64,000 nt of DNA from Tridacna crocea. Taxonomy: Eukaryota > Mollusca > Bivalvia > Cardiida > Cardiidae. The stretch spans positions 70,707,277-70,771,276 of the forward strand of contig OX031056.1 of NCBI GenBank assembly GCA_943736015.1, written 5' to 3'. The notes under the pieces were generated by a model. That model had not been told where the DNA came from. It made no database searches and saw only the letters and a list, made by a program, of their open reading frames with translations. Within the stretch, counting starts at the first letter, position 1. Each line of letters begins with the position of its first letter. Made by a program: the position numbers and the translations under genes. Positions 1,419 to 61,167 of the stretch are shown piece after piece.

Positions 1419-1552
1419 TGAAAATGCCTTGAGTAAAACATTTGTAGAAAGAGGGAACTATACTATATATGTAAGGAAGAAGAGTGATGAGGCAAATCAT
1501 GTGGAATGTGATGGACCAGTGCTGTTCAATGATCCTCCGGACAGTAATATAC
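1419..1552 (+). CDS. HGSNAT: HGSNAT exon 1 of window: end of lumenal domain
   Basis: Acceptor TTTTATTTCAG, donor GTAGGT; enters with one base of a split codon and leaves in phase 1 (C joins CA of the next exon to give Pro). It encodes 44 residues ending NDPPDSNI. The sequon NYT and a Cys in VECDG resemble the end of the human lumenal domain. A later GTAG at 1557 was rejected because only 1553 gives the conserved ProIle before the first membrane helix. Confidence 0.93.
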
Positions 1553-4500
1553 GTAGGTAGCCTTATTACTGGGTTAGATTTACAAAAAATTTGTATGTGT
1601 CATGCCCTATGAGTAAGGGGCTTAACCCAGTACCACACTATCCCTGCTTTTGACGACCCTGAGAAAGAAACCTCTGGAAAGCATTGTGGGAAAAGGAGAA
1701 AATGCTGGTAACCAGCATTTTCTCCTTTTCCCACAATGCTTTCTATCCTTCACAAAACAAATTTCAAATTTTCAGTGAGTTCTGTTTTGTTGTCAGCAAG
1801 TGCTTTCAATTTGGATTAGTTTAAGACATTGTCATGTGGTAAAGAGTTAATGCATTCGCAGATAGTACTAAACAAGAGGTCAGCCTACACACTCGGCTTA
1901 GGCTGACTTTCGGTTGGCACTTTTTGCTCTTGTTAAGTTTTCAGCACTTCTAAGGACCAGTGCAATCCATGACTAAGAAGGTTTTAGATTACATGGGTCT
2001 TACAGAGCCATGATAATGTGATAACTTACTTTGTTTAACCCTTTCCCAAACAATCCCTAGTTTTTACGGGTCTGGAATAGTAACCTTTTGAAAACATCGT
2101 GGGAAAAGGAGAAAATGCTGGTAACCAACATTTTCTCCTTTTCCCACAATGTTTTCTACCCTATCATAGACAGAAATCATCTTCTCAGCAAGAGTTGAAT
2201 TGTTATCTGCAAATGCTTTTAATTTGGTCTAGTCCAAAAGTTTGTCGTTTGGGAAAGGGTTAATCCATTAAACCCCTTTTTAGAAGAGCATGGCTCATGC
2301 ATACTTATCACAAAACCTTCCTTGTTTTTTAAATCCGTCCTTCTATCAAACAGTTCTTTTTTTTGAGGTAATGCTAACTTGACTTCTGATAGGACATGCC
2401 AAGGGGTCTCTCACCTAACTCCTTATATTCATCATGAATGAAAAACTGAGATTTTACTTAGGAAAGGTAGAAAACCTTTTGGTAAAAGGAGAAAATGCTG
2501 GTTACCAGCATTTTCTCCTTTTCCCAGAAAGTTTTCAAAAGTTATTGCCATTTTAGTTAAAAATCAAGACTTTGTGGTAATTGATTGAAGGGATATTTTA
2601 CTTGGGAATGCTAGAGAACCTTGAGGGAAAAGGAGAAAATAGTGGTTACCAGCATTTTCTCCTGTTTCCACAAGGTTTTCAAAAGTTTTTGTCATGTTTG
2701 TTAAACCCAAGATCACATAGGAAAAGATTAAACATATATTTTATAAGGTGTTTGCTGTGATTTTATCCCAAGAGGCTATGCAAGTGTGAAAATGATCATG
2801 AATTTTGTACTGTAAATGGAATGATTGAATCAATGAACAAACTGGTTTAAATTTGCAGCAATCTATGTTGCTATTGGATGCTTTGTTGGGGCTGCTATTC
2901 TGTGGATGATCCTGAAAAGATTCATGAGGTGAGATTTTAGCGCTGCTGGTTTTTAGCTCACCTGAGCACAACATGCTCAAGGGGAGCTTTTAGGGTCACT
3001 GGATGTCCGTCGTGCGTCGTCAACAATTCTTTAAACATCAACTGCTCCTAAACCACTGGGCCAATTTGGACCAAACTTGGCTGGAATGTTCCTTGGGAGA
3101 TCCTTTTTAAAAAGTGTTCACAGAATTTGATTCCGTCAAAAACTCTGGTTGCCATGGCAACGAAATGGAATTTTCTAGGAAATTCTTTGAAAATCTTCTT
3201 CTTTGAAACCGCTGGTCAGATTTTAAAATAATTTCACAGAGATGTTCCTTGGGTGACCCTTTTCAAAAACTGTTTGTTAAATTTTGATAGGTCAAGAAAC
3301 ATGGCTCTGGTGAATGGGGGCTTCTTGCACTATACAGAAATAAAGGAATTCTTAAAAATTCTTCCTCTCTGAAACGGCTGATCAGATTTTAAAATAATTT
3401 CACAGAGATGTTCCTTGGATGACCCTTTTCAAAAATTGTTCGTGAAATTTTGATCCGTCAAGAATCATGGCTCTGGTGAATGGGGGCTACTTGCACTATA
3501 CAGAAATTCTTTAAAATTCTTCTTCTCTGAAACCGCTGGTCAGAATTTGAAATAATTTCACAGAGATGTTCCTTGGATGACCCTTTTCAAAAATTGTTCG
3601 TGAAATTTTGATTCGTCAGAAAATGTGGCTCTGGTGAATGGGGGCTACTTGCACTATAGGGAAATGAAGAAATTCTTAAAAACTCTTCTTCTCTGAAACC
3701 GCAGGTCAGATTTTGAAATTATTTCACAGAGATGTTCCTTGGGTGACCCTTTTCAAAAGGTGTTCGTGAAATTTTGATTCATCAAGAAACATGGCTCAGG
3801 TGAATGGGGGCTACTTGCACTATATGGCCATGAAGAAATTTTTTAAAATTCTTCTCTGAAACTGCTGATCAGGTTCTGAAATAATTTCACAGAAATGTAT
3901 CTTAGTTGACCCTTTTCAAAAATTGCTCGAAATATTTTGATCCATCAAGAAACATGGCTCTGATGGCTGTGGGCTATTTACACTATACAGACATGAAGAT
4001 ATTCTTAAAAATTCTTCTTCTCTGAAATGGTTGTTTAGATTGTGAAAAAATTGGCTATGGTCCTCTCAAAAATTCAGGTGAGCGAACCAGGGCCATCTTG
4101 GCCCTCTTGTTTTTTTGTTAAATTTGAGGTAAAGTTATCGACCTGTCTTTTTCACGATCATCAATTTTGAGAGTGAGTTTTCGCACTGGAATTTTTGTGG
4201 GCAACATTCTAGAAAAGAGGCATATAAAGACAGCATGTAGACCAAATATGGCACTACTGTCTTATCTCACACATGTGTAAGACAAGAAAATTTGTAATGG
4301 CTGTTTCACATTGAAAACAAGTGGACTTACGCTTTAAATAATGGTTAACTCAGTATCAGATGACAATATTTTAGGCTTGTCCAAGTCAAAAGCATTTGAA
4401 AATGACATGATAAAAGTGACTGAAAATTTGAAATTTGTTTTGAGAAGGGTAGAAAATATTGTGGTAAAAAGGAGAAAATGCTGGTTACCAGCATTTTCTC

Positions 4501-10500: not shown

Positions 10501-13500
10501 TTGTCATTTGTACTGCCTTGACCTTCCCTGAACCCTCTAACTCTCTAACCTTGTGTGTTAAATCTTTACCACATAATCCCGATTTTTAATGACCCTGAGA
10601 AAGAAGCCTATAGAAAACATTGTGGAAAAAGGAGAAAATGCTGGTAACCAGCTTTTTCTCCTTTTCCCACAATGTTTTCTTCCCTTCCCAAAAGAAATTT
10701 CAAATTTTCTGTCACTTCTATTTTGTCGTGACAAACTTAATGTGACTGAAAAGTTGAAATGTGGGTTGGGAAGAGTAGAAAACATTGTGGAAAAAGGAGA
10801 AAATGCTGGTTACCACACAATCCCAAGTTTTAACGACTTGTGAATGAAGCTTTTGAAAACATTGTAGGAAAAGGAGAACCAACAATGTTTTCTACTCTTC
10901 CCAACCCACATTTCAACTTTTCAGTCACATTTATTTGTCACCTACAAATGCTTTCAATTTGGACTGGGCCAAAATTTTGGTGTTTGGTAAAGAGTTAACT
11001 CATTACCAAACGACAAAATTATAGACTTTTCCAAATTGAAAGCATTTGCAGACGACAGAATAAAAGTGACTGAAAATTTTAAATTTGTTTTGTGAAGGGT
11101 AGAAAACATTGTGGGAAAAGGAGAAAATGCTGGTTACCAGGCTTATTTCTCAGGGGCATCAAAAGTAGGGATTGTTTGGTAATGGGTTAAATGAAAAAAA
11201 GAGTGGTTGGTGAATTTGGACTGTAGTTACATTTTTCCTTTTCCCAACATGTTTTTCTACCATTTCACAAAGAAATCCCATCATTTGAGCAATATTTGAT
11301 GTGATGTCTGCAGATACTGTCTGCCTTGTTAACCATTTTTCCAAAAAATCTCTGGATTTTATGACTGTGAAAGAGAAGCTTTTTGAAAACATGGTGAGAA
11401 AAGGAGGAAATGTTGGTTACCAGCATTTTCTCCTTTTCCAAAATGTTTTTCATCCTATCAAAAGAGAAAAATCATCATTTTACCAACATTTGATATGTGG
11501 TCTGTAAATGCTTTCAGTGAGGACCATTCTTTAGTTATTTCCCTTGATTCTTCTCCAGCACTACATTTGTTCTGATAAGATAGTTACTTGGTTTTTATCC
11601 TTGATTTTGTTGCACTGAACAGCTATTTTTCCCGAGGCAATATTTTAAGTCAAAGTTGTTAAATTGATTTACATATCGATATATATGGAGTTCTTGGTGA
11701 TTCAGGACAGAATTTTATTTGAATTACATGTGGACCTTAAAGAGACATCATAAATCATTGTTGTAATTATGGCAACATCCTCAAAGGAAGCAAGGATAAA
11801 AACAAAGGTATACAGGTGAATGGACCACTGTGTTATTTGGTTAGCTTCAGTCTATATCTGGCAAGGGAGATAATTTAATTGACAGGAATGGCGGCCATTT
11901 GGTCCAGTTCAAAAATTTGTCGTTCAGTATAGAGATAAGTCTGTATTTCTCTTATCTGGTAAAAAATAAAAAAACATAGTTACTTTTACAAACATGTAGT
12001 TTGCATATATGTCGGTTGACTCAAGGTTCTTGACATCATAAAATTAACTCATTACAACACAATCCCAAGTTTAAAAATATCCCTAAGAAAGGAAAATATT
12101 GAAAAGATAGTGGGAAAATGAGAAAATGCTGATAATAAGCATTTTCTCCTTTTTCCCTCAATTTTTTCCAGCCTTTAATAGACAGGTCCTTTCATTTTAT
12201 TCATACTAAATCTATGGTCTCGGATTTATTCATTGCGCCTTATAACTCACAAAGTGGTTTATTTAACAATAAAACACAATAGAAAGATGATTTTGATTCT
12301 AACATGACCAATTCTTTATGAAAGGAAAATAAGTTCATCTTTAGAGTAAGAACACGGATGAAGATTATGTTCTGTTGAATAACTCACTAACTTACTTTAT
12401 ACAGAATGACGGCACTATGCATGGAATGTCGAAGATTTTGCCCAATTTCCCTGCACCGTGTTTATAGAGCTGAATTTGCATATCATGTTAGAATATATGA
12501 TTACTTACATGGTAAATGCATCCTAGAGATGTGTAAGTGAATGATAGAGATCCTGTGTTTATATTTTAAATTGTCAGACTGCGTATACTGCACAGGACCT
12601 GGGTATGCCCACAACTAACTCTTCGGGAGAAGCTGGTGGTCGACCGCAAACACAGAAAGAAAGGTTGAAATCTCTAGATACATTTAGAGGGTAAGTGAAT
12701 CTCTATTACCCCTTGTGTATACCATGTTCCTTGCAGTCATGCCAGCCCTGTTTGTAATGCTTTTATATTAGACGAGCCTAAAATGTTGTCTTCTGGTAAA
12801 GAGTTAACAATTTACCTCCCAATAATGACTTCTAATGACCCTTAGAAAGAAGTTTATAGAAAACAAGAAGCCTTTTGAAACTGTTGAAGGAAAAGGAGTA
12901 ATTGCTGGTGAACAGCAATTTTTCCATTTCCCAAATTGTTTTCTACTCTTCCAACAACAAGTGTCAATTTTTCAGCCACTTTTATTTTGTCATCTGCAAA
13001 TTCTTACAATTTGGACCAGTCTCAAATTTTGTAGTTTGGTATTGAGTTGACCCATTACCACACAATCCCTACTTTTGACCCCCTTGAGAAAGACCGCCTT
13101 CAGAAAACATTGTGGGAAAAGGAGAAAATGCTGGTTACCAGCATTTTCTCCTTTTCCCACAATGTTTTCTACCTTTCACAAATCAAATTTCACATATTCA
13201 GTCACTTATTTTGTCATCTGCAAATGCTTTCAATTTGGACCAGTCTAAAATTTTGTAGTTTGGTATAGAGTTAAACTAAGCAATTCATCATATATCTCTT
13301 AACTCTTTACCACACGAGAAAATATTTGACTGGTCCAAATTGAAAGCATTTGCAGTTGTCAAAATAAAAGTGACTAAACAATTAAAATTTGGGTTGAGAA
13401 GGGTAGAATACATTGTGGGAAAAGCAGAAAATGATGGTTAACAGCATTTTCTCCTTTTCCCACAATGTTTTCAAAAGGCTTCTTTCTCATGGGTCGTTAA

Positions 13501-16500
13501 AAGTCGGGATTGTGTGGTAAAGAGTTAACCCATAAAATTAATTTTGTCTTACAACGAACAGAATCATGAGGTACACCTTGGACATGATCCATGTATGTGC
13601 AGAAAATTTATAAAGTGCAATATCATGAGAGGCCTATCAGCCAGTGGGGACTTGGCAGCAGGGTCCAAAAAATTTCAGAATTCTTACTTGTCTTCCTGCA
13701 ATTTTGCACTTGTCCTACAGTTGGACAAAGAAGGCTAATCGTCTTGTCCTCACTAAATTTTTGTTCATAAGGACAAGCAGTTGATATTTTGAACCCTACT
13801 TGGCAGGTTGTTATTGTTTGGTACCTTTTACAAATGAAGTAAGCCCATTTTCTACAAAGCATGACTCACTTGCGTTTGAAAGGGTTGAAAACATTGGGGT
13901 TAACCCATTACCACACAATCCCTACTTTTGACGCCCCTGAGAAAGAAGCCTTTTGAAAACACTGTAGTAAAAGGAGACAATGCTGGTAACCAGCATTTTC
14001 TCCTTTTCCCACAGTGTTTTCTACCCTTCCCAGAACAAATTTCAATTTTTCAGTCACCTTTATTTTGTCGTCTGCAAATGCTTTCAATTTGAACCAGTCT
14101 AAAATGTTTGTCGTGTGGTAATGAGTCAAACACATTTTTTTCTTGTACAAACACTTGAACCTTTCATAAAAGGTTCGGGGCTAGGTTTTGATGTTACCTA
14201 TTTATTTACTTTCCAGAATCGCTATAGTTATAATGATATTTGTAAACTATAGAGGTGGGGATTACTGGTTCTTTAAACATGCCAGATGGAATGGCCTCAC
14301 TGTTGCAGACCTTGTGTTTCCATGGTGAGTGGAATGACCTTGACAGAGGCCGAAAGCATGTAGATTGGTATTATAGTTGATTGTTGCATGCATTGTACTA
14401 ACAAGGAAACTCTAACTGCTTGTTGTATTGCAAGTGTTTATTTATTTTTTGTTATTTCTTTATATTCCCCCACTTTTGATAGTTGTCAACCATTGTTAAA
14501 AAAAAAATTAGACCAGCTGTGTTTTCACAAATTACTCTGGTACAAGTAACTGCACTGGGGACACCATTGTTGGAAGAAAAGGAACAAATGGTTTTGATAA
14601 GCAACTGCTCCTTTTCCCAAATATTTTCCACAGCTGTCAATAGTAGGGGCATAGAAATGAACAACACTGGGTATACCCTTTACCACACACCCTAGAGATC
14701 TAAAGATCCTTAGAAAAGGCTTTTGAAAAAATTGTGGGAAAAGGAGAAAATGCTGGTAACCAACATTTTCCCCTTTACCAACAATGTTTTCGATCCTTTT
14801 GAAAACAATTGTAGCTTTCAGGTCACATTTCTTTTCTCGTCTGCAAATGCTGTCAGTTTGGACAAGTCTTAAATTTTACTGTGTGAAAGTGGGTTAACTC
14901 TTTACCAAACGACAAAATTTAAGGCTTGTCCAAATTGAAAGAATTTGCAGACAACAAAATAGATTTGACTTAAACATTGAAATTTGTTTTGGGAAGGATA
15001 GGAAACATTGTGGGAAAAGGAGAAAATGCTAGTTACCAGCATTTTCTCCTTTTCCCACAATGTATTCAGACGCTTTCTCAAGGTTGTTAACAGTTGAAAT
15101 TGTGTGGTAAGGAGTTAACCCTTTGCCACACAATCCCTACTTTTGATGACCCTGAGAAAAAAGGCTTTTGAAAACATTGTGGGAAAAGGAGAAAATGCTG
15201 GTAACCAGTATTTCCTCCTCATCCCACAATATTTTCTACTGTTCCAAAAACTAATTTCAATTTTCAGTCACAGTTTTGTCGTCTGCAAATGCTTTGAATT
15301 TGGACGAGTCTAAACTTTTGTGGTTTGGTGAAGAGTTAACCCTTTCCCAAACAATCCCTGGTTTTTGGGGGTCAGGAATAGAAGCCTTTTGAAAACATTG
15401 TGGGAAAAGGAGAAAATGCTGGTAACCAGCATTTTCTCCTTTTCCCACAATGTTTTCTACCCTATCATATAGAAAAATCATCTTTTTAGCAACGGTTAAG
15501 TTGTCATCTGCAGAATGTTTGGTGTGGTCCAAAATTTGCCGTTTGGGAAAGGTTTAAATAACTAATTAATCTACATGTATTTTTTCTCTATTTCTTGCTG
15601 TTGTGTGCATGTAGACTCAGCCTGGTCATCATGTGCTTTGTCAATTATGGTGGGGGAGGTTATTGGTTCTTTGACCATTCGGACTGGAATGGGATCACTG
15701 TAGCAGACTTGGTTATGCCTTGGTATTTCTATAAATGCTTACCCTGTTATGCTTGGGTACAAATGTATTTTTTTCCCTGTTTGCCTTGTTATATCTGGGT
15801 ATTTCTATGCATTCTTACCTTGTAATACCTAGATATTTATATATATGCTTATATATGCTTACCTTGTTAGAATGCCTTGGTACAAATGTATTTCTATCCT
15901 TGCATACTTTGCTATGCCTTGATATTTCATCACATGCTTACTCTGTTAAACTTTGATATTTCTACACATGCTTACCTTGTTAAACCATGATATTTCTATT
16001 ATGCTTACCTTTGAAAAACTTTGTATTTCTACACATGCTTACCTTGTTATGTCTTGGTATTTCTACACAATCAAACTTACCTTGTTTTACTTTGGTATTT
16101 CTATGTATGCTTATTTTTTATAGCCTGGTATATCTCTACATGGTTACCTTGTTATGCATTGGTATTTCTGTCCATACTTACCATGTTATACAATGGTATT
16201 TGGTATTTCTACTCATTCTTACCTTGTCATACCTTGGTAAAAATGTATTTCTATACATGCATACCTTGTTGTACATCAATATTTATATTCCTGATTACCT
16301 TATCATGCTTTGGTAGAAATATATGTCCTTGCTTACTGTATTATGACTGGGTATTTTTCATAGGAAAAAAAAATGTAGGTGTTTTTCATAGGAAAAAAAA
16401 ATGTATTTCTGACCCAGCCTACCTGCCATGTCTGTTTATATTTATACATGGTTACCTTATTATGCCATGGTACAAAATGTATTTCTGTCTGTACTCTTTG

Positions 16501-19500
16501 TACTTATTTACTAATGTTTACCATCTTTCGGTAAAGAAAATTTGTGTTCAATCACAATTTAACTGATTACAGCTAGTTATTAACATATACACTTTGTCCA
16601 GATTGAAAGACTTTGCAGGTGACATTTTAAATCTGACCCATAAATTAAAATTTGATTTTGAAGGATAAAAGCATTTTGGGAAAAGGAAAAAAATGCTGGT
16701 TACCATCATTAATTTTTCTCCTTTTCCACAATGTTTTTAAAAGTTTTCTTCTTTAGCGTCTATTAGACTCGGGATTATTTGCTTTTAAGTTTAACTCATT
16801 ACCAAACAACAATATTTCAGGCTTGTCCAAGTCAAACGAATTTGCAGACGACAAATTAAAAGTGACTTAAGATTTGGAATTTGTTTTGTGAAGGGTAAAA
16901 AACACTGTGGTAAATGGAGAAAATGCTGGTTACCAGCATTTTCTCCTTTTCCCACAGTGTTTTCTAAAGGCTTCTTTCTCAGGGGCGTCAAAAGTAGGGA
17001 TTGTGTGGTAATGGGTTAAAGATGTTGATGGCACTGTAATCTTAGTTTTATGCTGTTTTCAAACACTTCAGTTTACTAAACGTATTTTCCTTTTTTCCAA
17101 CCCTTAATTAAACAATCCCTGCTTTTTATGACCCAGAGGAATAAGCTTTTGAAAACGTTGTGGGTAAAGGAGAAAATGCTTCTCCTTTTCCCACAATGTT
17201 TTGTTCTCTTCCTAAGTCAAGTAAAATTTTTGAGTCATTTTTAGCTCCACTGGCCGAAGGCCAGCGAGCTATTGTCATGGCGTTGTGTCCGTCGTGCGTC
17301 CGTCCGTCCGTCCGTTCGTCCGTGCGTGCGTCCGTAAACTTTTTCTTTAAAAAACTTCTCCTCAGAAACTATTGACTGGATTTTTACCAAATTTCATAGG
17401 AATGTTTCTTAGGTGGTCCTCTTTCAAATTCCTTCAAATAATTCTGTTCCATGAATAATTCTGGTTGCCATGGCAACCAAAGTAAAAAACCTTTAAAAAT
17501 CTTCTCCTCCCAAACCGCTAATTGAATAGCATTGTTTTTTTGCAGGAATGTTCCTTAGGTAGAGGTCTACAGAATTCCTTAAAAAAAAAAAGATCCTTCA
17601 AAAAACATGGCTTTTATGGGAGACTCATTTTCCTTTTATGGTATAAAGTAAAATTTTTGAAAAATTCCTTCTCTCAAACTACTTGTTTTGATTTCATTGT
17701 TGTATTGAAGGTAAGTTCCAATGGTGGTAAGTCTTTACCATACAATCCTGACTTTTAAGGACCCTAAAAAAGAAGTCTTTGGAAAACACTCTTGGAAAAG
17801 GAGAAAATGCTGGTAATCAGCATTTTCTCCTTTTCCCTCAGTGTTTTCTACTCTATCAAAGAGAGAAATCATTTCATCAATGTTTAATTTGTTATCTGCA
17901 AATGCTTTCAGTTTGGTTACATCCCAAATTTTGTCGTTTGGTAAAGAGTTAAAGATGGTTGCTTTACATAATCTATAATCCTTTTCATATAAAACAAGGG
18001 AAACTCTGCACTTTGATAAGTTCTGGTAAAGGTTTGTTGACCTACTGGTGACCTGGTACAAAGAGGGACAGGGCTTTACTGTTGTGATAGGCATTTTGTT
18101 ATCAAATCAAACTGATCCCTGACAAAGAAGACTTTAGAAAACATTGTGGGAAAAAGAGAAAATGCTGGTAGCCTTTTCCCACAATGTTATCTACCCTTCA
18201 CAAAACAACTTTCAAATTTTCAGTAACTTTTATTTTTTCATCTACAAATGCTTTCCATTTGGACAACCCTAAAATGTTGTCATTTGGTAATGAGTTAACT
18301 ATAACCAGAAGACAAAATTTTTATAACTGGCCATAATTGAAAGATGTTGCAGACAACAGGATAAATCTTCAAATTAATAATACTATTAAAAAAGGGTAGA
18401 AATTATTGTGTAAAACTAAGAAAATGCAGGTAACTTTTATTTTCTTCTTTTCTCACAATGATTTTCATAGCTTTTTTTTCTTTAGTGACCTAAAATGCAG
18501 GAATGAATGGTAATTGTTAAAAACTTCTCTTCGCCGTTACAGAAAAATCAGGCCTGTGGAGCGATACAGGCGCTCAAGCGCCTCTAGTTTTGTTTGTCAT
18601 CTGCAAATGTTTTCAATTTTGACAAGTCTAAAATTTTGTTGTTTGGTAAAGAGTTCAAAAGAAAAAAAAAAAAAAAAAAACATAATGCATGTTTATGTAG
18701 CTGCATTTTTCCATCTGTCAACATGTATTTTTTCCTTAATCTAGGTTTGTCTGGATAATGGGAACAGCAATGGCCTATTCATTCCAGTCTTTGCTGAGAA
18801 AAGCCACTCCAAAATCTTACATATTTTGGAAAATTGTGAAAAGATCAGTCATCCTATTTGCCTTGGGTTTGCTCATTAATTCATCTGATGGTCTGAATCG
18901 TAAGTACGGTACTTATGTTCACCTGCAAATCTGTTTCCCTTAATCTTAATTCTGTACTACACAATCCCAACTTTTAAGGACCCTGAGAAAGAAGTCTTTC
19001 GGAAACATTGTGAGAAAAAGGAGAAAATGCTGGTAACCAGCATTTTCTTCTTTTCACACAGTGTTTTCCACCCTTCCCAAGCCAAATTTTATTCCAGTCA
19101 CATTGATTTTGTGGTTTGCTGAAGCTTTCAATTCGGACCAGTCTTTCATTTGTTGTAAGGTAAAAACTTAATTCTTTACCAAATAACAAACTTTTATTCT
19201 TGTCTTTATTGGAAGCAGTTGTCAACAATAAATTAAGTCAAACACGAAAAATAAGATTTGTTAATGAAATGGTCGAAAGGTCTCCACAGTGTTTTCAAAA
19301 GCTGACTTACAGGAGATGACATACTCAGTATAAGATAAAGAATTGGATTTGGCTATGAAATGGTGGAAAATATTGTTATAGAAAATGCTGGTTACCATGG
19401 TTTACCAATTCAGGATTGTTTGGTAAAGAGTTATTTCTTTACAAGATATATAGGGTCTGACATTAATTGGCTTTTGAGATAAGATTTTATTAAACTCGTC

Positions 19501-22500
19501 AAAAAAGAATATTACCTAAGTAAGCATGAGTCTAGGGAAATGTTATTAAATGAGCCAAAGGCTTGCTTAATAAAATTTTTCCTTGACAAGTTTAGTAAAA
19601 TATTATTTGAACTATTGTGATACTTTACTTTAGTATAGGGTGTATGGATAAGAGTATAGAAATGATATTTACCTTTTATTTCAGCTGTAAGAATGAGAGA
19701 GTTCAGGATACCAGGTGTACTACAGAGATTTGCAGGAACCTATCTCATCATTGCCACAATGCATTTAATTTTTGCCAAACCAAACACACCCCATCAGGTA
19801 AACAGACAGGTGACCAGTGTGTCAAGTTTTATTGTTGTGAAAAAGAAATTATTTTACAAAATCCCAAAAGTTTATAAAAAAACTTTGAACAAATAACCTT
19901 GCAAAACTTTTACAATGAGTTCATTGTTAATTGTGTACCACACAATCTTCACTTTAAATGACCCTGAGACAGAAAGCTATCAAAAAAAGTATGGCAGAAG
20001 GAGAAAATGCTTGTTACCAGCATTTTCTCCTTTTCCTACAATGTTTTCTACTCTTCCCATAACAAATTTCAATTTTTGAGTCACAATTATTTTGTTGTCT
20101 GCAAAGGCTTGCAATACTATGTTGTGCGGCAAGTTAAATTAACCTTTTCCTTGACATATCTTAGACTCTTCTTATTCAAAGCATCTGCAAAGACTTCCAA
20201 ATTCAAAGCATCTGCTTGGCTTTCAAATTCAAACTTAAGCATCTGCATAGACTCTTTCAAATACAAAGCATCTGTAAAGACTTCCAAATTTAAAGCATCT
20301 GCAAAGACTTCAAAATTCAAAGCATCTGCAGACTCTTTCAAATACAAAGCATCTGTAAAGACTTCCAAATTTAAAGCATCTGCAAAGACTTCAAAATTCA
20401 AAGCATCTGCAGAGACTCTTTCAAATACAAAGCATCTGCAAAGACTTTTAAATTTATAACATCTGCAAAGACTTCAAAAAAGAAAAAAAAAAAAGAGCAT
20501 CTGCAAAGACTTCAAAATTTATACCATCTGCAGTCTTCCAAATTCCAAGCATCTGCAAAGACTTCACATTCAAACCATCTGCAAATACTTCAAAATTCAT
20601 AACATCTGCAAAGACCCTTCAAATTCAAAGTATCTGTATAGACTTCCAGATTTAAAGCATCTGCAAAGGCTTCCAAATTCTAAGCATCTGCAAAGACTTC
20701 CAAATTCAAAGCATCTGCCAAGATGTCCAAATTCGAAACATCTGTAAATACTTCCAAATTTAAAGCATCTGTAAAACTTCCAAATTCAAATCATCTGCAA
20801 GGCTTCCAAATTCAAAGCATCTGCAGAGACTCTTTTAAATACAAAGCATCTGTAAAGACTTCCAAATTCAGAGCATCTGCAAAGACTTCCGAATTCAAAG
20901 CAACTGTATTTGGAAAGAAAGTTGTGTTAGTACAGGTATGAGAAAGCCAGGAAACACATGTGCATCACTGACCGCCATGATATGATCTCAGCTGTTAAAG
21001 TTGCATTAAACCCCAATACAACCAATCAAAGCAACGGCAAATACTCTTCAAATTCAAAGTATCTATAAAAACTGCCGAATTCAAAGCATCTGCAAAGACT
21101 TCAAAATTCATAACATCTGCAAAGACTTCCAAATTCCAAGCATCTGCAAAGACTTCACATTCAAACCATCTGCAAATACTTCAAAATTCATAACATCTGC
21201 AAAGACTTCCAAATTCCAAGCATCTGCAAAGACTTCCACATTCAAACCATCTGCAAAGACTTTCAAATTCAAAGCATCTGCAAAGACGTCCAAATTCAAA
21301 GCATCTGCAAAGACGTCCAAATTCAAAACATCTGCAAAGACTTCCAAATTCCAAGCATCTGCAAAGACTTCCACATTCAAACCATCTGCAAAGACTTTCA
21401 AATTTAAAGCATCTGCAAAGACGTCCAAATTCAAAGCATCTGCAAAGATGTCCAAATTCAAAACATCTGCAAAGACTTCCAAATTCAAAACATCTGCTAG
21501 GCTTCCAAATTCAAGGCATCAAAAGAGATTCTTTTAAATTCAAAGCATGTGTAAAGACTTCCAAATTCAGAGCATCTGCAAAGACTTCAAAAGATCTGCA
21601 GAGACTCTTTCAAATTCAAAGCATCTGCAGAGACTCTTCCAAATTCAAACAGTCTGCAAAGATGTCGGAATTCAAGACTTGATCTTCAAGTTCAAAGTAT
21701 CTGTAAATGAATGCATCTGCAGAGACTCTTCCAATTCAAACCATCTGCTAAGACTTCCAATTTCAAAGCATCTGCAGAGAATCTTAAAGTCCAAAGTATT
21801 TGGTAAGGCTTTCCGAATTCCAAGCATCAGCAAAGACTTTAAAATTAAAAGCATCTGCCAGGACTTCCATATTCAAAGCATTTGCAAAGACTCCAAAATT
21901 CAAAGCATGCAAAGACTTCCAAATTCAAAGCATCTGCAAAGACATCCAAACTCAAAGCATCTGCAAAGACGTCCAAATTCAAAACATCCGCTAGGCTTCC
22001 AAATTCAAGGCATCAGAAGAGACTCTTTTAAATTCAAAGCATGTGTAAAGACTTCCAAATTCAGAGCATCTGCAAAGACTTCCGAATTCATAGTATCTAT
22101 AAAGACTTTCAAATTCAAAGCATCTGCAAAGAGTTTCAAATTCAAAGCATCTGCGAAGACGTCCAAATTCAAAACATCCGCTAGGCTTCCAAATTCAAGG
22201 CATCAGAAGAGACTCTTTTAAATTCAAAGCATGTGTAAAGACTTCCAAATTCAGAGCATCTGCAAAGACTTCCGAATTCATAGAATCTATAAAGACTGCC
22301 AAATTCAAAGCATCTGCAAAGACTTCCAAATTCAAAGCATCTGCAAAGAGTTTCAAACTCAAAGAATCTCCAAAGACGTCCAAATTCAAAACATCTGCTA
22401 GGCTTCCAAATTCAAGGCATCAGAAGAGACTCTTTTGAATTCAAAGCATGTGTAAAGACTCCAAATTCAGAGCATCTGCAAAGACTTCCGAATTCATAGT

Positions 22501-25500: not shown

Positions 25501-28500
25501 AACTTTTAATAATGCAGAAAACATTGTGGCAAAAGGTGAAATTGCTCGTTACGAGCAATTTCACCTTTTTCCACAATGGTTTCCAAAGGCTCCTACAAGC
25601 AATGCATAGAAATGAGTATCTGTGGAGTAAAGGGTTACTCTCCTTTTTCACAGAGCATGGCTCACATAGGTTTAATCCTTTCCCAGATGACAAAATTTTA
25701 GCCTCCTCCAAATTGAAAGCATTTTCAGACAACCATTTCAATGTGGCTCAAATAGTGCAATCTTTCCTTGTTAGGGTAGAAAACAATGACTGTGGGAAAA
25801 GGAGAAAATGCTGGTTACCAGCATTGTCTCCATTTCCCACAAAGTTTCAAAAGGCTTGTTTCTGAGGGTTGTTAAAAATTGGGATTGTGTGGTAATGGTT
25901 TATGAGTACTCTTTTTGAGTTGATGTATTCAGTCTTTTGTCTGTTTATATATGCATGTGTTTTTGCTTTATAATTTCAGTTGACATGGTGGACCTGTATA
26001 CAGGATATTGTGATATATTGGCAAGAATGGTTGTTCAACTTTATTCTAGTGTTTATATGGTTAATGCTAACTTTCCTTTTACCAGTGCCTGGGTGCCCCA
26101 AGTAAGTCAGATTATTTGGACATGGCATTGTGATCATTTAACTCTGCCAAATGACAAAAATATGGAGTTGTCCAAATCAAAAGCAGTTCACGTGTGAGAT
26201 TGGTATTTTAATGTTGAAATTAGCCCGTGAAAGAGTAGACTCTCGGAAACCATTTTGGGAAAATGAGGAAATACTGATTACCATCATCTTCTCACTTTAT
26301 TCGCCCTGAGGGTCGTATTATGTTATGGCATTGGTCATCAGTCCGTCCGTTAGCAATTTCTTACATGCACAACTCCTCCTACAGTTTCCATGGGAATTAT
26401 TTGAAACTTACCACAATGAATCTTTATGATGTGTCTTAAAAATTTGGATCTCTGTAGGCGTTCTAGGTTTTAACCCATTTCACTCAAGAGCCCCTTCGGG
26501 TGTGTAAGCACTTGTCCCAATTGGTGTTTTCAAAAGCCATTTTTCCTCAAGATTGTAAGAAACTAGGGTTTGTGTGATAAGAAGTAAACAATACAGTTTT
26601 GGAGTGTTTGCAAAGTATTTAAAGAGAACTTGATCAATGTTGTTCCGGTGACAGGGTTTGTCTTTGATAGAGTAAAAAGAATTGTGGGAAAGTGCTTTTC
26701 ACAGTTCAAAATGCTTCTTATGTAAGGTCATCAAAACTCGGTATTATAATAAAAATTGTGGGAAATGCTTAAATTCAGTTGTTAATTTGGAGACTGCTTA
26801 GTTGCACTTTCCTTTTTAAAAAGTAATTCATTGTTAGTACAATCAGAAGTATTTCTGTTCATTTTCCATAAAGAATGAGGGAAACAGTGAAAATACTGGT
26901 CATGAGCATTTCCTCTTTTTCTCACAATATTGTCAAAAGCTGTCTCCCTATGGTTGTCAAAATTTGAATGTTCTAATACATGATTAACAACAAACAAACC
27001 TGATGTTCTAATAAATGATTAACAACAAACACACCACTGTAGATGGATGCATTTGAAATTGTCCCAAGCATTCCAATAGTCCTAGAGCTAATTTCTATCC
27101 TTCTAGGGGCTATCTGGGTCCAGGGGGCCTAGCAAATGATGACCCAGATCATCACAATGTTACCAACTGTACTGGTGGGGCAGCTTCTTACATAGACAGA
27201 AAATTATTTGGTGAAGGAAGAATATACCAGTCACCCACATGTAAGGTGAGTACAGTATTAGTGGATATTTTTGCGGGTTTAAATTTTCGGAAGGAAGCAA
27301 ATACTAACTTTACTTGCGTTTAATTTGCCGCAAAAATGCAACAAACAAATTTAACCCTTTCCCAAACAACAAATTTTGGACATGTCCAAATTGGCAGCAA
27401 CTACAGATGAAAAATTCAAACTTGGTACAAATTAGCTTTAAGTCACTGATAGGGAAAAAAACATTGTTGGAAAAGGAGAAAATGCTGGCAACCAGCATTT
27501 TATCCTTTACTTACAATGTTTGCAATCCTCAATTTAATAGATCTCAATTTTTATTTTCACGAAATGTTTTAAATTTGCAGAATTAAACGCCACTAGAGTA
27601 GTATTCTTGTTGCCTTTGATGAAAAAAGGCATTCATTTAGGTCAACATGGGTTTCAATAAATGTCAACAAGGGACCCAACAATTGCATGCTCCCACATAA
27701 ACCAGTGTCTGAGTGAAATTAAGAGTTATATAGGATCTGACATGAGTGGGCTTTTGAGAGAAGGTTTTTATTAAACAAGTCAAGGAAATGTTATTAAGTG
27801 AGCCTTTGGTGAGCTTATTAACAATTTTCCTTGACGAGTTTAATAAAATTTAATGAAAGGAAAACAAGTTCATACTAAGAGTAAAAATGTGGACATGGAT
27901 TATATTCCATTGAATAACTTACTTACTTTTAAACAGAATGACGTCACTGTAAAAACAGTGATGTCACTCTACATGAAATAACCTTGATTTTACCAGGCTT
28001 TTGTTGCACTGTGGTTATAGTGCTGAATTCATGTGTCATGCTAGGATCTACCATAATGCAGCTTTGATTAAAGCTGATTGACATCTTTGTGAAATCTATT
28101 GCTTAATTGATAAAATTTGAAAGTATAGAAAGTTTGAAAGTATAGAAAAACAATTGTGAGGGAAATGAGAAAATGCTGGTAACCAGCATTTCTTTTCTTA
28201 GAGTCGTATAAAGTCGAAATTGTGTTAGAAGGTTTATATGTCCTTTGACTGTAACTTTTTTATATTGATTGCAGGAAATTTACAGAAGTACAGTACCCCA
28301 TGATCCTGAGGGTCTTTTAGGAACTCTGACTTCTTGTTTTATGTGCTTCCTTGGTCTCCAGGTATTTCAACCTTTAACTGTTTACAAGACAAGAAAATTT
28401 TAGAATTGCCATTTCAATTGATAATAATCTAACTCTTTACCAAACGACAAAATTTTGGACTGGTCCAAATTGAAAGCATTTGCAGACAAAATAATGTGAC

Positions 28501-31500
28501 TCAAAAATTGAAACTTGACTTTAGAAGAGTAGAAAACATTGTGGGAAAAGGAGAAAATGCTGTTTACCAGCATTTTCTTCTTTTCCCACAATGTTTTCAT
28601 AAGGCTTCTTCCTCTAAGTAGAAGAAATCAGGTATTGTTTGGTAAAGGGTTGAAGAAGCTTGTGTAGTTTTTATGTAGTAATTCAGAATTTCATGTAAAA
28701 CACCTATTTATTAAATAAGATATATTTTTCCTTACAATAATAAAGACATTGTACCATTACATTCAGTGAAAACATACAATTTTGGGCATTTTATTAGTAG
28801 ATGGTCTGTTTTGCAGTTGGTAAGTCCATCTTTTTTTATAGCATCACATATGATGATATTGTTCTGATTTGAATATTAATCCTTGGAATCCACCCAGTGT
28901 AATTGATCATGTGACATTCCCAGAGGCCTTTGTAAAACACTGGCACAAAATCTAAAAATACATTGTGGGAATGTAGTCAATTCAGGAAATACTATTGAAT
29001 AATATTTTTTTTTTACTTCTTTATTCTGAGCTGATATTTAGCCAGCTATTGCCTTACTTAAAGCAGTAATTAATCATTGTAGAAGATTGAGAAGGTTTTA
29101 AAAATTTGAATCTCTTGTTTAAATGTGGTTAATAATAATATTGACTTTATTATTATTATTTCTGCAGGATTATTTTTGTTAATTGATTGTATTGTATATG
29201 TACATGTATGTTTTATTTCTGTTAAATAAAATATGTTCAAATTAATACGATGCCATTTTTTATCACACAGAATTAAAATCATTGGTCAAGAAGAAAATGC
29301 TAGCATTTCCTCCATTTCCAACAACATTTTCAAAAGTGTTTTTCCATGAGATTAGTAAAACATCATGATGCTTTGTCTCTCTTCTTTCAAAACCAAGTGT
29401 CCCCCTGGCTCCCCAGTTAAGGTGTTTGAGGTGTACATCTGAAAACCACTCCATTTGTTTCATTGTTTGTTTGATTGTCCTCCGATTCTCTTAACTCGTT
29501 AACAAATGACAAAATTTTAGTCTGGTCCAAATTGAAAGCATTTGCAGATGTCAAAATAAAAGAGACTGAACATTCGAAAATTTTACAGAAGAGGAGAGAA
29601 AACATTGTGGGAAAAGGAGAAAATACAGGTTTCCAGCATTTTCTCCTTTTCACACAATGTTTTCAAAAGGCTTCTTTCTCTTGGACGTCAAAAGGCGGCA
29701 TTATGTCGTAAAGGGTTAATAGAAGTTTATCTAAAAATTCTTTGGGGTAGTTCAATTGATTTTCATGTCAATATTGATGGGTTTTTTTGTTGCTTTTGTA
29801 GAATGTGTATATCAAAATTAGACATCTGTACAACCAAAATGAATTGCTCCTATCATTTTATTTATATATATTTTCAGGCTGGTAAAATTCTGTTGACTTT
29901 CCATGACTGGAGAGCTAGAGTCAAAAGATTTGTGCTATGGGGAATATGTCTGGTAAGTAGCTGTGTTCACTAGAACTAGTTTTTCATTACTTGCTTTCTC
30001 TTAGCACCATACTACAAGGCAATTTTTAGATGTTTTCATATCATTAGGGCTTGCATGTGCAAGTTTGTCACTTTGTATGATTTGTGCCATAGGCACTTGG
30101 TTTCCCTGTCTTTTACTTTTGTACCTTGCTTCTTCTATTTCTGTATATCATAATTACTAGAAGGTTTAGCAGAGGCCATGTTTTAAAGCAACGGAAGTCC
30201 TTGATTAGGTTTCGATTTACGCTGGCTTCCGGATTGTCATTAACATGCTGGCCAATTCGGTTACCATGATAATGTAAATAAGACAGACATTTACTGTCTG
30301 GTAGCTGTATTGGCCAGCGCCTTTGCGATGATTCGGGAGCCATGGTAAATGAAAACCTGATCAAGGAGTTTTGTTGCTTTAACCCTTTCCCAAGCAACAA
30401 ACTTTTGGACTTGACCAAATTGAAAGCATTTGCAGATGACAGTTCAACTCTTGCTGAAAAGATGATTTCTGTCTATGATAGGGTAGAAAACATTGTGGGA
30501 ATAGGAGAAAATGCTGGTTACCATCTAGATAAACCTTTTTCATTTTGTCATTTATCTTTTGTTATTTTGTAGCTATTACACATAAGTAACCCATCAATAT
30601 TCTGCGGTTTGTTATCTCTTTACCACACAATCCCGACTTTTGACGGCCCTGTGAAAGAGAGCCTCTCAAAACATTGTAGGAAAAGGAGAAAATGCTGGTA
30701 AGCAGCATTTTCTCCTTTTCCCACAATGTTTTCTATTGGTTCCAAATCAAATTTCTATTTTTTAATCACATTTATTTTGTCGTCTGCAAATGCTTTCAGT
30801 TTGGACTAATCCAAAATATTTTGTCGTTTGGTATGCAGTTATGACTACTAAGTTGCAAGAATAGTGATATTCTCTATGTTTTTTCTGTACATAGGGCATC
30901 ATTGCAGTCATTTTATGTGAAGGCAAAAAAGACGGAGGGTTTATTCCTATCAATAAGAACCTATGGTAAGTTTTTTTCAGGAATTTGCTTCAAATACTGA
31001 CCTTATACTGTGTAGGTGAACCCTTTACCATTTGATGAAATTTTGAAGAAAGGAACAAATGCTAGTAATCCTTCAGTAAACAAATTCCATCATTCGAGCT
31101 ACTGTATTCATCTTAGATGCTTTCAGAATGGCGTCACTCTAAATAAAATGATGTCACTCTATATGAAATAACCTTGATTTTACCAGGCTTTTGTTGCACT
31201 GCATTTACGTTGCTGAATTCGTGTATCATGTTAGAATATATCAGAGTGCAGCTTTGATTAAAGCTGATTGACATCTTTGTGAAATTTATCAAAACACAAA
31301 ACTTATGAAGATTTTCTAAACTTAACAAGAACATTTTCAGTATCACAGTTTATCCATGGTAAAAAAGTTTTAGTTCAAGTTGAAAGCTGTAGCAGATGAC
31401 GAATTTACTGTGGCTTAATTGATGAAATTTGCCTTTGAGAGTATAGAAAAACAATTGTGAGGGAAATTAGAAAGTGCTGGACACATTCCAACTTTTTTGT

Positions 31501-34500
31501 CTTGTAAAGAGTGAAGGTCAAAAATATCTCTTTTATTCTAGGCAAGTCATTACATAATTATGGGTCCTTAACCCTTTACCCCGTTAGGCATTTTTATGGT
31601 ATCTCTAATTTACCCTAAATAATAGCAAGGATGAAGCCATTTCTTATGTGTATATGACACCTTTTTATAGTACAGAAAACATTGTTACAAAAGGTGAAAT
31701 TGCTTGTCATGAGCAATTTCACCTTTTGCCGCAATGTTTTCCAAAGGCTCCTACAAGCAATGTGTAGAAATGAGTATCTATGGAGTAAAGAATTAAAATA
31801 TGTTTTGTCTGCCAACCATCTAAATCATGAAGTAAAATGGTCCTTTAAAATGCAGAAAACTTAATGGAACTTGGGTCACATTTTTGTGATCTAGCAAGTC
31901 ACATTGTATAAGTACAAGTACAAGTTAAGTTTGAATTCTGTCCAAAACAACAACATTCCCTAGATTAAAAGTGTTTGCAGATGACACAATAAATATTAGA
32001 CAAAAATGGAAATTTGCCATAGAAGGTTGATTGATTGATTGATTGTATGGTGTTTAATGTCATTTTCAACATTATTTCCGTTATATCGTGGCGGCCAGTG
32101 CACCTATCCATGTATTCCTGGAGTTTCTTTTACCAGTACTTCGCATAATTTTCTTTCCAATCCACTGGCTGCTTTCCTACATGATCAGGGGTGAAAGAGG
32201 AATGAATCCTGTCGCAGTGATTATCAACCAGCATTTTCTCCTTTTCCCACAATGTTTTCTATCCTATCAAACAAAAATCACATTACTGAACCACATTGGA
32301 ATTGTCTTCTACAAATGCTTTCAGTTTGGACATGTTAAGATTTTGTTGTGTGGTAAAGGGTTAAGCCCCCTTTTGTCAGAGCATGGCTCATATGTTTACT
32401 CAATTTCTATCTTTCAGGTCCTTGTCGTTTGTTATATGTCTGTCTTCGTTTGCATTTTTCCTGTTTGCCTTCTGTTACATTACCATAGATGTCTACAAAG
32501 TTTGGACTGGTGCTCCATTTTATTATCCAGGTAAAGCTTTTAATCTACTTTCTGTTATACTAAATATTGTGTTAACGATCTATGATAGAGATAAATTCCT
32601 AGGTATTATTTTAAACACCCCAGTATGTATAAATTCTTTGAATTACTCAATAGTAACAATAAAAGAACCTTGATACAGTTAACTTCATATTATATACATG
32701 CTTTTTAATCCAGAATGAATATTTCTTAGTCAAACAGTTGATTCCAGGATAAAAGGATTACTTTTTAGCCTCTCTCACTTGTGTAACTATATTTTATCAA
32801 TATGTTATTATTGTTAATATTATTTTCTTCATGAAACATGATTGTCATTTTCATAACATGCATATATGTACATGTATGTATTTGTGACTTTGATGCCTTT
32901 GTGGTAGAAGTCAAAATGAAATTTCTGTTCTGTTCTGTAATTTTTGTTACCAAACAACAAAATTGTGGACTAATTTAAAGCATTTGCAGACGACAAATTC
33001 AGTAAGACTCAAATGGCGAGATTTGTGTTTGAAAGGGTAAAGAATATGTTGGGAAAAGGAAAAAAATACTAGTGAGCAGCATTTTCTCCTTTTTCCAATA
33101 TGTTATCAAAAGTGTTCTCTCTCAGGTTTGTGAAATCATGGAATTGTTTGAAAAAGGGTTAACTTGCACCATTAAATGGCTGAATTGCGAAAAGCGGTGC
33201 GTGTATGACAAACAACTTATATCTATTAAAAGAACAAGTGGTGTCCAAAAGAATACAATGTGGGTGTTGTCATGCACTCAAATTTATATCAATTCAAAAG
33301 CATGGGAATTTACCTGAAAATAATAGTCTATTATTATACAGATGGCCCAAGGGTTAGGCTCTTGCAGAAAATGAAATTTCAAAAGTAGGTTAAAGGTTGC
33401 AAGGTTGGATATCTATTGTTTACTTCTTATCTACGATCAGAACTCATTTTTTTCCTTTTCAATTCAAAGCAAATTGATTCAATACCAGATAACAAAATCT
33501 TTAGACAGTTGCATTCTCAAAGTGATTAAAGATGACAATTTAGATGTCTGGCAAATTAATTAAAAAAAAAATCTTTTATAAAATAAATTTTGTTGGAAAT
33601 GGAGGAGATGCTAGTAATGAGCCTTTTTCCTTTTCCCACTATTTTTTTTTTTTTTTAAATCATCCTAATAATGGTGCATTTGGAAACTCGGGATTGTTTG
33701 GTAAAGATTGACTTTTCGGTATGTTTAATAATATTTGACTCTTTGCCACATAACAAAATTATAGACTGGTCCATGTTCAAAGTATTTGCAAAGAACTGAT
33801 TAAACGATACTCAAATGATGGGATTTACAATAGGGTAGAAGACTTTGTGAGAAAAGGAGAGAGTAAAGGTTACCAGCATTTTCTCCTTTTCCCACAAAGT
33901 TTTCAAACATCTTTTACACCAGCGTTGTTAAAACTCAGGATTCCTAGGTAAGGAGTTACACCCATTACTGCACAATCCCTACTTTTGACAAGCGTGAGAA
34001 AGAAGCCTTTTGAAAACATTGTGGGAAAAGGAGAAAATGCTGGTAACCAGCATTTTCTCCTTTTCCCACAATATTTTCTACCATTCACAAAACAAATTTC
34101 AAATTTTCAGTCACCTTTAAAGTTTATTTTGTCGTCTGCAAATGCTTTCGATTTGGACAAGCCAAAACTTTTTTAATTGGTAATGAGTTGAAATCCAAGA
34201 AAGTGCCACAAGCATCAGTCAGCAGAAAAAGATTATCCATAATCTGATGCTACTTACTCTGTTCACTTTGATTTTACTTTTCACAGGCATGAACTCCATT
34301 TTTATGTATGTCTGCCATCTTGTTTTTATGCCGTATTTCCCTGTCAGTTTCTACGTGGATGAAACATCACACTGGGCCCAGCTTGCCATGAATCTTTGGG
34401 GTCCAGTATTTTGGTGCCTTGTCACCTATAAAATGCATCTTGATAAGAGATACATTACAATTTAATTGGAATTTTAATAAAGAGGTAGTTTCATGCACAA

Positions 34501-60769: not shown

Positions 60770-61167
60770 TTAGCTTTCCCTATCCGTCTTCTGAAGCAAA
60801 ACACCGCTGAATGTTGTACATGAGCCTGAGAACACTTTGCTCCAGCCACCACAATTTCCTAACGTAACCGAATCACCCTTCTGCAACAATAGGTTCACTG
60901 AAGCTGAGGCACTTGTGTGAGAGCTATCACTGTATGATCTGCCATACACTTTGCTGGTACCATTATGTCTAATCCAACAGTAGACTTCATGTTTTCCATC
61001 TGACGCCACAGTGAAGACAAACATGTACAATCCACCAACAGGACATGTAAATATACCGGTGTCGATGTCATATCCGTTTCCTATATTTGTGATCGCATCT
61101 GAGAAAATGGGCACTCCTTTGACTAACTTGTTAGTTGGTATTTTCACTGAAAAAGCGATAACCTCAT
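60770..61167 (-). CDS. C1q-domain protein, last exon
   Basis: Acceptor on the minus strand TTTTTTTTCACAG at 61168-61180, then EVIAFSVKIPTNKLVKGVPI, a compact C1q jelly roll. Landmarks in order: FSV near the start, GNGYDIDTGIFTCPVGGLYM, VFTVASDGKHEVYCWIRHNG, ASASVNLLLQKGDSVTLG and TTFSGVLLQ, with stop at 60770-60772. C1q-domain proteins are secreted recognition lectins in bivalves. The domain is whole; the exon(s) with signal peptide and any collagen or coiled-coil part are not found in 61181-64000, which is repeat, so they probably lie beyond the window. The Met inside the exon is not taken as the start because the conserved FSV strand precedes it. Confidence 0.86.

Follow-up and report, generated by a model that had tools for sequence, protein, structure and literature searches.

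The plus strand of a 64-kb stretch of the Tridacna crocea genome (hereafter the window; C1:70707277-70771276 in a genome of 1.05 Gb and 31 contigs) carries most of one HGSNAT-like gene. The best explanation of its structure, to which we assign a probability of roughly 0.86, is that it is a functional molluscan HGSNAT with a tandem-duplicated exon 6, of which either 6a or 6b is used, and a separate duplication of the terminal exon (15A and 15B). Under this explanation, the exon that encodes TM2 together with the catalytic loop would have been duplicated in tandem, and transcripts would take 6a or 6b, with the inclusion of both being unproductive because of a TGA stop at the 6a/6b junction. A second, independent tandem duplication would have given rise to the alternative terminal exons, which code for TM10-TM11 and would contribute to the same acetyl-CoA pore. 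With two such exon pairs, the gene can code for up to four proteins, i.e., a constant frame with two exchangeable pocket modules.

Structure of the HGSNAT-like gene

The exons were located with tblastn, using human HGSNAT and an intronless paralogue of the same genome as queries; the DNA itself then gave their borders and phases (Table 1). The name "exon 6" follows the numbering of an initial annotation made from the letters of the window and not that of the human gene, which has 18 exons, the first six encoding the luminal domain and TM1 (PMC11357348, available text). The first exons of the clam gene probably correspond to two weak matches (E 0.47 and 0.77) just upstream of the window. Further, one short exon is probably missing from our model between 2928 and 12596, because the exons beginning at 2859 and 12596 cannot be joined in frame and additional residues are present at this point in the intronless copy. 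Exon 5 has a second possible acceptor, with which it would start at 12578 and likewise be open.

Table 1. Exons and candidate regulatory elements of the HGSNAT-like gene (window coordinates)
Feature	Position	Strand	Basis and remarks
Upstream exon, part of the luminal domain	1419..1552	+	Weak tblastn match (intronless paralogue), E 0.010; order and AG/GT borders consistent
Exon with TM1	2859..2928	+	Weak tblastn match, E 0.46; order and AG/GT borders consistent; in frame with the 1419..1552 exon
Exon 5, ends ..LDTFRG, phase 2	12596..12690	+	tblastn and borders
Exon 6a, 108 nt, covers TM2 and the luminal loop that holds the catalytic His	14217..14324	+	tblastn and borders
TGCATG, candidate regulatory element	14385..14390	+	Begins 61 nt past the last base of 6a
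TGTTGTGTGCATG, candidate regulatory element	15599..15611	+	TG-rich stretch leading to a TGCATG that starts at 15606; lies immediately 5' of the 6b acceptor
Exon 6b, 108 nt, alternative TM2 and catalytic loop	15615..15722	+	tblastn and borders
Exon 7, first base G completes TGG	18745..18899	+	tblastn and borders
Exon 8	19685..19797	+	tblastn and borders
Exon 9	25980..26101	+	tblastn and borders
Exon 10	27107..27245	+	tblastn and borders
Exon 11	28275..28361	+	tblastn and borders
Exon 12	29878..29952	+	tblastn and borders
Exon 13	30895..30965	+	tblastn and borders
Exon 14, ends CCA-G, phase 1	32418..32530	+	tblastn and borders
Terminal exon 15A, TM10-TM11 region, stop TAA	34287..34465	+	tblastn and borders
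Terminal exon 15B, TM10-TM11 region, stop TGA	37939..38117	+	tblastn and borders

The spliced 418-residue product with 6b and 15B recovers human HGSNAT (8vkj) in a phmmer search with E 1.8e-122 over residues 19-416. The two products of the window, taken without their N-terminal part, matched no Pfam family at E 0.001. Among the relatives, the Ruditapes form with 6a and 15A scores 24.5 against the HGSNAT_cat profile (PF07786), above its cut-off of 22, and the form with 6b and 15B scores 21.4, just below it.

Two versions of exon 6 and the stop between them

The initial annotation had proposed that exon 6 is present as two phase-matched catalytic exons, and its description of them, coordinates included, proved accurate. 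Both are 108 nt long and in phase 2, with their own AG acceptor and GT donor, and either joins exons 5 and 7 in frame, such that the 5-6a-7 and 5-6b-7 products are both open. Their translations are identical at 26 of 37 residues, counting the completed split codons, and each includes the helix and the loop with the catalytic His, together with M282, N286 and D307 (human numbering). The pair thereby displays the structural hallmarks of mutually exclusive exons: adjacency, homology, equal length and phase, and separate splice sites.

At the DNA level, the two exons agree at 73 of 108 positions (68%), with the differences falling 11, 4 and 20 over the first, second and third codon positions (20 of 37 third positions and 4 of 37 second positions), a distribution suggesting that both are under constraint. 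The corresponding NG86 estimates (dN 0.26, dS 1.77) are only indicative, as dS is near saturation. In tblastn searches of a database comprising the window and two 40-kb paralogue regions, human HGSNAT matches 6a with E 3.8e-14 and 6b with E 1.6e-12. Since each exon on its own matches human HGSNAT and most of the differences are in third positions, chance is not a plausible source of the pair.

The borders of the two exons have a further consequence, one that the initial annotation did not note. Both begin with an A that completes a GG left by exon 5, and both end in a TG that is completed by the G of exon 7. In a 5-6a-6b-7 transcript, the codon split between 6a and 6b is hence TG-A, a stop, despite lengths divisible by three, and a transcript with both exons cannot yield the full-length enzyme. 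The 5-7 transcript, with both exons skipped, keeps the frame and loses the catalytic helix segment. The stop hangs on a single base at a four-fold degenerate site, where the codon is Gly whatever the base, and could be due to chance, at roughly one in four. Among the 15 modelled exons, only 6a and 6b have A as their first base; the 12578 start of exon 5 would add another. We also considered two other ways of keeping the exons apart: a frame-shift is ruled out by the 108-nt length of each exon, and steric exclusion by the 1,290 nt of the intron between them.

Both exon types occur in other molluscs

A first protein search gave 2,614 matches and a search scored on 6b gave 190, with 120 listed in each case; the comparison set comprised 229 database proteins, or 231 with the two window peptides. 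Among the matches listed, the 6b signature, HSDWNG preceded by D, A, N or E, is found in at least eight mollusc records: Ruditapes X5, Argopecten X3, Crassostrea angulata X5, Haliotis rubra X1, H. cracherodii and Lottia, along with partial records from Dreissena and Mytilus edulis (a count that leaves out P0148, P0154, P0156 and P0222). In Ruditapes philippinarum, a species other than that of the window, the isoforms X4 (6a-type) and X5 (6b-type) are database gene models that differ at 11 of 622 residues, all within exon 6. Ruditapes X2, X4 and X5 are all listed on a contig 276,821 bases long and have the remainder of the protein in common.

A similar exchange is seen in the Haliotis and oyster records; these pairs, like that of scallop, are formed by close relatives and not by one species. 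Haliotis cracherodii and H. rufescens X3 agree at only 25 of 37 residues in exon 6 and 20 of 58 in the last exon, as against 235 of 241 before exon 6 and 282 of 287 between the two. Likewise, C. angulata X5 and M. gigas X1 agree at 29 of 37 residues in exon 6, 254 of 261 before it and all 292 + 58 after it (292/292 and 58/58). On these comparative data, two enzyme variants made from one locus through 6a or 6b, as first proposed, is the best-supported reading.

The alternative that 6a and 6b are ordinary cassettes, whose double inclusion or double skipping is normal, finds a precedent for skipping in the Mercenaria isoform model X7, which is without exon 6 and in frame, as the product of the window gene would also be. 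Double inclusion runs into the junction TGA, and none of the 231 proteins has two exon-6 segments (a loose form of the motif occurs once in 226 and never in 5). Skipping, in turn, would remove TM2 and the reaction residues, presumably leaving no active enzyme of the known kind. We consider this alternative improbable.

Age and conservation of the exon-6 pair

We compared the two types over 35 whole codons in six lineages that have both (for scallop, oyster, mussel and Haliotis, the two types are taken from different records, which in scallop, oyster and Haliotis belong to two species). The mean identity is 30.9 of 35 among 6b sequences (15 pairs) and 27.1 among 6a sequences (15 pairs), and that between 6a and 6b is 25.2 within a lineage (6 pairs) and 24.6 between lineages (30 pairs). 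A 37-column comparison gives the same pattern. The observed labeling of the types is the best of 32, which is also the floor of this permutation test (1 in 32). In a small tree of the exon, the seven 6b sequences cluster as one clade (local support 0.876); the separation of 6a from everything else (6b, the C14 paralogue, the intronless copy and human) has local support of only 0.205, the exon being short. As the sequences group by type and not by lineage, the duplication probably predates the split of bivalves and gastropods. These two classes diverged more than 500 million years ago.

On these identities, 6b is the slower, more conserved copy: that of the window is identical to its Ruditapes counterpart at 36 of 37 residues and, by reading, to the Dreissena piece at 36 of 36. 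This bears on the possibility that 6b is no more than a fossil or cryptic copy, included in transcripts seldom if ever, with 6a alone in use. Such a fate would accord with its splice sites, as its donor (TTG/gtattt) agrees with the consensus at 5 of 9 positions, the lowest of 13 donors, compared to 8 of 9 for that of 6a (ATG/gtgagt), and its pyrimidine tract is poorer (10 of 17 compared to 14 of 17 for 6a; two other exons have 8 of 17). It would also accord with the kind of record in which 6b occurs: among the matches listed (120 of 2,614 and 120 of 190), every mollusc 6b record is a gene model on a long genomic contig, whereas the 6a+15B form also occurs on a transcript-sized one (P0005, 613 aa, 3,206 bases). 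Decay, however, does not fit an exon that is the better conserved of the two, lacks any stop or frameshift, differs from its partner mainly in third positions and is used in separate database isoform models. We rate a fossil 6b as low in probability as the cassette alternative.

Paralogues in the same genome

Two short DNA searches, from which the list of paralogues may be incomplete, revealed two further HGSNAT loci, one on C1 that lacks introns and one on C14 that has them. The former (C1:54262000-54301999, concatenated positions 13934-15805) is intact, codes for about 618 residues, is 93% identical to the database protein P0023 and 52-55% identical to the Dreissena and Mercenaria proteins, and is probably an old retrogene that has been kept intact. 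We considered whether it preserves a fossil of a spliced exon-6 choice; its one exon-6 segment matches 6a at 29 of 37 residues and 6b at 30 of 37, and cannot tell which was taken. In the C14 paralogue (C14:811000-850999, 40 kb), one exon 6 and one last exon were found.

While such additional loci could in principle supply duplicates through separate tandem gene copies or an assembly error, this origin is very improbable for 6a and 6b: a single set of exons 7-14 was found in the window, the same arrangement is implied for the Ruditapes models on their single contig, and a DNA identity of only 68% means that the two are not haplotypes of one exon.

A second pair: the terminal exons 15A and 15B

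The last coding exon is likewise present twice, a feature that the initial annotation overlooked. Both 15A and 15B run for 179 nt to their stop and follow CCA-G in the same phase; an AATAAA lies 11 nt past the stop of 15A and 335 nt past that of 15B. Ends of the 15A type were found in seven records (Ruditapes, Mercenaria, Saccostrea, Pecten, Mytilus edulis, Haliotis rufescens and Patella), and a search scored on 15A gave 4 matches. Here again, isoform models isolate the exchange: Saccostrea X1 and X2 are identical outside the last exon and agree at 22 of 58 residues within it, and Ruditapes X2 and X4 agree at 16 of 59 residues in the last exon and are identical elsewhere at aligned positions.

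Across seven lineages, the observed labeling of the exon-15 types is the best of 64 permutations. In the exon-15 tree, the eight 15A-type sequences form a clade (local support 0.913) and the 15B-type sequences do not; the last exon of the intronless paralogue groups with clam 15B (0.986).

As for the combination of the two pairs, each of the six mollusc 6b records whose tail could be read finishes with a non-A exon, and all seven 15A-type records carry a non-6b exon 6. These counts omit P0123 and P0125 (tails missing), P0066 (tail out of frame), P0148, P0154 and P0222 (6b signature, not taken as mollusc) and P0156 (below the length limit). That 6b comes only with 15B-type ends among the records seen is only a lead, since models built from short evidence cannot demonstrate coupling.

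A further difference among the models lies outside both pairs. Ruditapes X2 (P0008) and Mercenaria X2 (P0006) have at least 43 extra residues in the TM1-TM2 loop that are absent from Ruditapes X4/X5 and Mercenaria X7; in Ruditapes X2 the segment is 43 residues long and precedes exon 5. Going by these models, it is a third, cassette-like variation of the same gene.

Both exchangeable exons map to the acetyl-CoA pore

HGSNAT is a lysosomal enzyme, by definition one that transfers acetyl groups to the terminal glucosamine of heparan sulfate, whose loss in humans causes mucopolysaccharidosis IIIC, and its reaction residues are given as N286, H297 and D307 in the available part of PMC11199644. The same source and the accessible text of PMC11357348 describe a gate formed by M282, F310 and F313 with I608 and Y611 of TM10b, a helix parallel to TM2, and a luminal salt-bridge cluster of H586/E587 (614/615 in the other numbering) with the catalytic His. 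In our alignment to the human protein (8vkj), M282, N286, H297, D307 and F310 fall in exon 6, F313 is the first residue of exon 7, and the positions of I608, Y611 and H586/E587 fall in the last exon. Since exon 6 and the last exon carry these gate and reaction positions, and TM2 and TM10b are parallel, one pore is lined by both exchangeable exons.

Four columns separate 6a from 6b in all six lineages: 279 (I in 6a, L in 6b), 283 (I; C or N), 296 (K, R or H; D, N or A) and 299 (R, K or I; D). Position 310 is F in all six 6a sequences and is divided in 6b between M (three) and F (three). The state of 296 is not unique to 6b, with D also found in the C14 paralogue, a sponge and an annelid, and E or Q in vertebrate relatives. 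Among the columns that separate the last-exon types are 609 and 610, located between I608 and Y611; E615 is kept in seven of seven 15B-type and three of seven 15A-type sequences compared.

Judging by the placement of these type-specific residues, the 6b form, in which the mostly basic residues flanking the catalytic His are replaced by acidic or neutral ones, may differ in its acceptor preference or pH optimum. The fuller proposal that the 6b enzyme uses an acceptor other than heparan sulfate, or works at another pH, with 15A and 15B retuning the acetyl-CoA gate, is a tentative one that we regard as somewhat doubtful.

AlphaFold2 models were obtained for two Ruditapes forms. That with 6a and 15A (pLDDT 77.9, pTM 0.75) aligns to 8jkv with a TM-score of 0.93 (target length). 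The model with 6b and 15B (pLDDT 77.2, pTM 0.65) also has HGSNAT as its best match (E 2.3e-37), with TM-scores of 0.65-0.71 (target length) and rmsd values of 16.9-19.5 Å. The difference between the two may be a modelling effect.

How the choice between 6a and 6b may be made

The choice of exon may fall to splicing regulators, as suggested by the weak sites of 6b and by the presence of TGCATG both after 6a and before 6b, where the copy within TGTTGTGTGCATG begins 9 nt before the exon. TGCATG occurs 22 times on the plus strand of the 64 kb, and at this rate such proximity has P 0.03 within 100 nt and 0.01 within 40 nt, values that apply to a motif picked after seeing the sequence; the arguments from both the motif and the splice-site strength are post hoc. 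We take TGCATG to be an RBFOX-type motif. An RBFOX site 3' of an exon usually favours its inclusion, and one 5' of an exon usually represses it; by this rule, the two sites would favour 6a where RBFOX is present.

As a test for docking and selector sequences, we looked for exact complementary 13-mers that are unique in the window. Intron 5 and the 6a-6b intron share five, three of them overlapping, and all five are by inspection parts of the abundant intronic repeat with the 105-match core described below; the other two intron pairs yielded 0 and 0.

Relationship to known exclusive exons

Exclusive tandem exons are a known kind of system, and the HGSNAT isoforms are already public as gene models. 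We found no description of the HGSNAT exon pair among the matches listed in a search of literature titles and abstract openings, mostly open-access. With the isoforms already in databases, the new elements are the identification of the exons as a pair, how old it is likely to be, where it sits in the active site, and the finding of a second pair and of a stop at the junction. Human HGSNAT has, according to the initial annotation, a single such exon, whereas the clam gene has two, plus two terminal exons. The human enzyme (PDB 8vkj, 8jkv and 8tu9) belongs to the same family across the whole catalytic region, and M282, N286, H297 and D307 are kept in both 6a and 6b. To our knowledge, exclusive exons that swap the segment with an enzyme's own catalytic residues are uncommon.

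The closest parallel is COQ-2, in which a switch between exons 6a and 6e, found in helminths, annelids and molluscs, changes the substrate (eLife 2020; PMC7434440, available text). As in HGSNAT, exclusive exons remodel the core of a membrane enzyme and are present in molluscs and absent from vertebrates. The HGSNAT pair differs in belonging to a different enzyme and fold, in holding the catalytic residues and in being joined by a second exchangeable exon that lines the same pocket.

The junction stop is paralleled by the flip and flop exons of AMPA receptors, which are tandem, exclusive exons of 38 residues with 8-10 differences, whose double inclusion leads to a stop and whose joint product is expected to be degraded (PMC8257547, part of the text). 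There, the exons are 115 nt long and double inclusion shifts the frame; in HGSNAT, with 108 nt, the stop arises in the split codon TG-A. Decay of double-inclusion products is said, in the portion of PMC6071210 consulted, not to apply to exclusive exons of length 3n, and the split-codon stop shows how it can reach such exons.

With respect to regulation, the exons 7a and 7b of C. elegans unc-32 are chosen through intronic UGCAUG and UUGUUGUGUUGU stretches under RBFOX/CELF control (PMC3585155, accessible part). The 6a/6b pair resembles them in having TGCATG and a TG-rich stretch around the exons; the positions of the motifs differ, and the likeness here is one of motif presence alone.

In one paper on human duplicated exons, ion transporters are stressed (PMC9741552, available text). 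The HGSNAT pair adds a lysosomal enzyme that appears to keep two versions of its active site in bivalves and gastropods, with the weaker-spliced version being the more conserved. Such natural variants around H297 and the acetyl-CoA gate would help separate catalysis from substrate choice.

Other features of the window

The intron between exons 8 and 9 contains a minisatellite of about 5 kb (20174-25354) with a 27-nt unit in about 192 copies; the long ORFs that cross it on both strands are probably spurious. A very abundant palindromic repeat with the core GGGAAAAGGAGAAAATGCTGG has 105 matches in the window at up to 3 mismatches (58 on the plus and 47 on the minus strand). It is denser in the gene, with 81 matches in 1419-38117 compared to 24 in the 26 kb downstream, and may represent a small inverted-repeat element. 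Tandem arrays with a period of about 156-166 nt, which fall into two kinds by consensus, occupy 1-1232, 3179-4052, 7821-8759 and 61977-64000. On the minus strand, 55684-57539 contains LINE-type fragments with endonuclease and reverse transcriptase pieces, for which one of three matches passes the Pfam cut-off and the other two are just below it. Also on the minus strand, an ORF at 60770-61147 codes for a C1q domain (E 1.7e-17).
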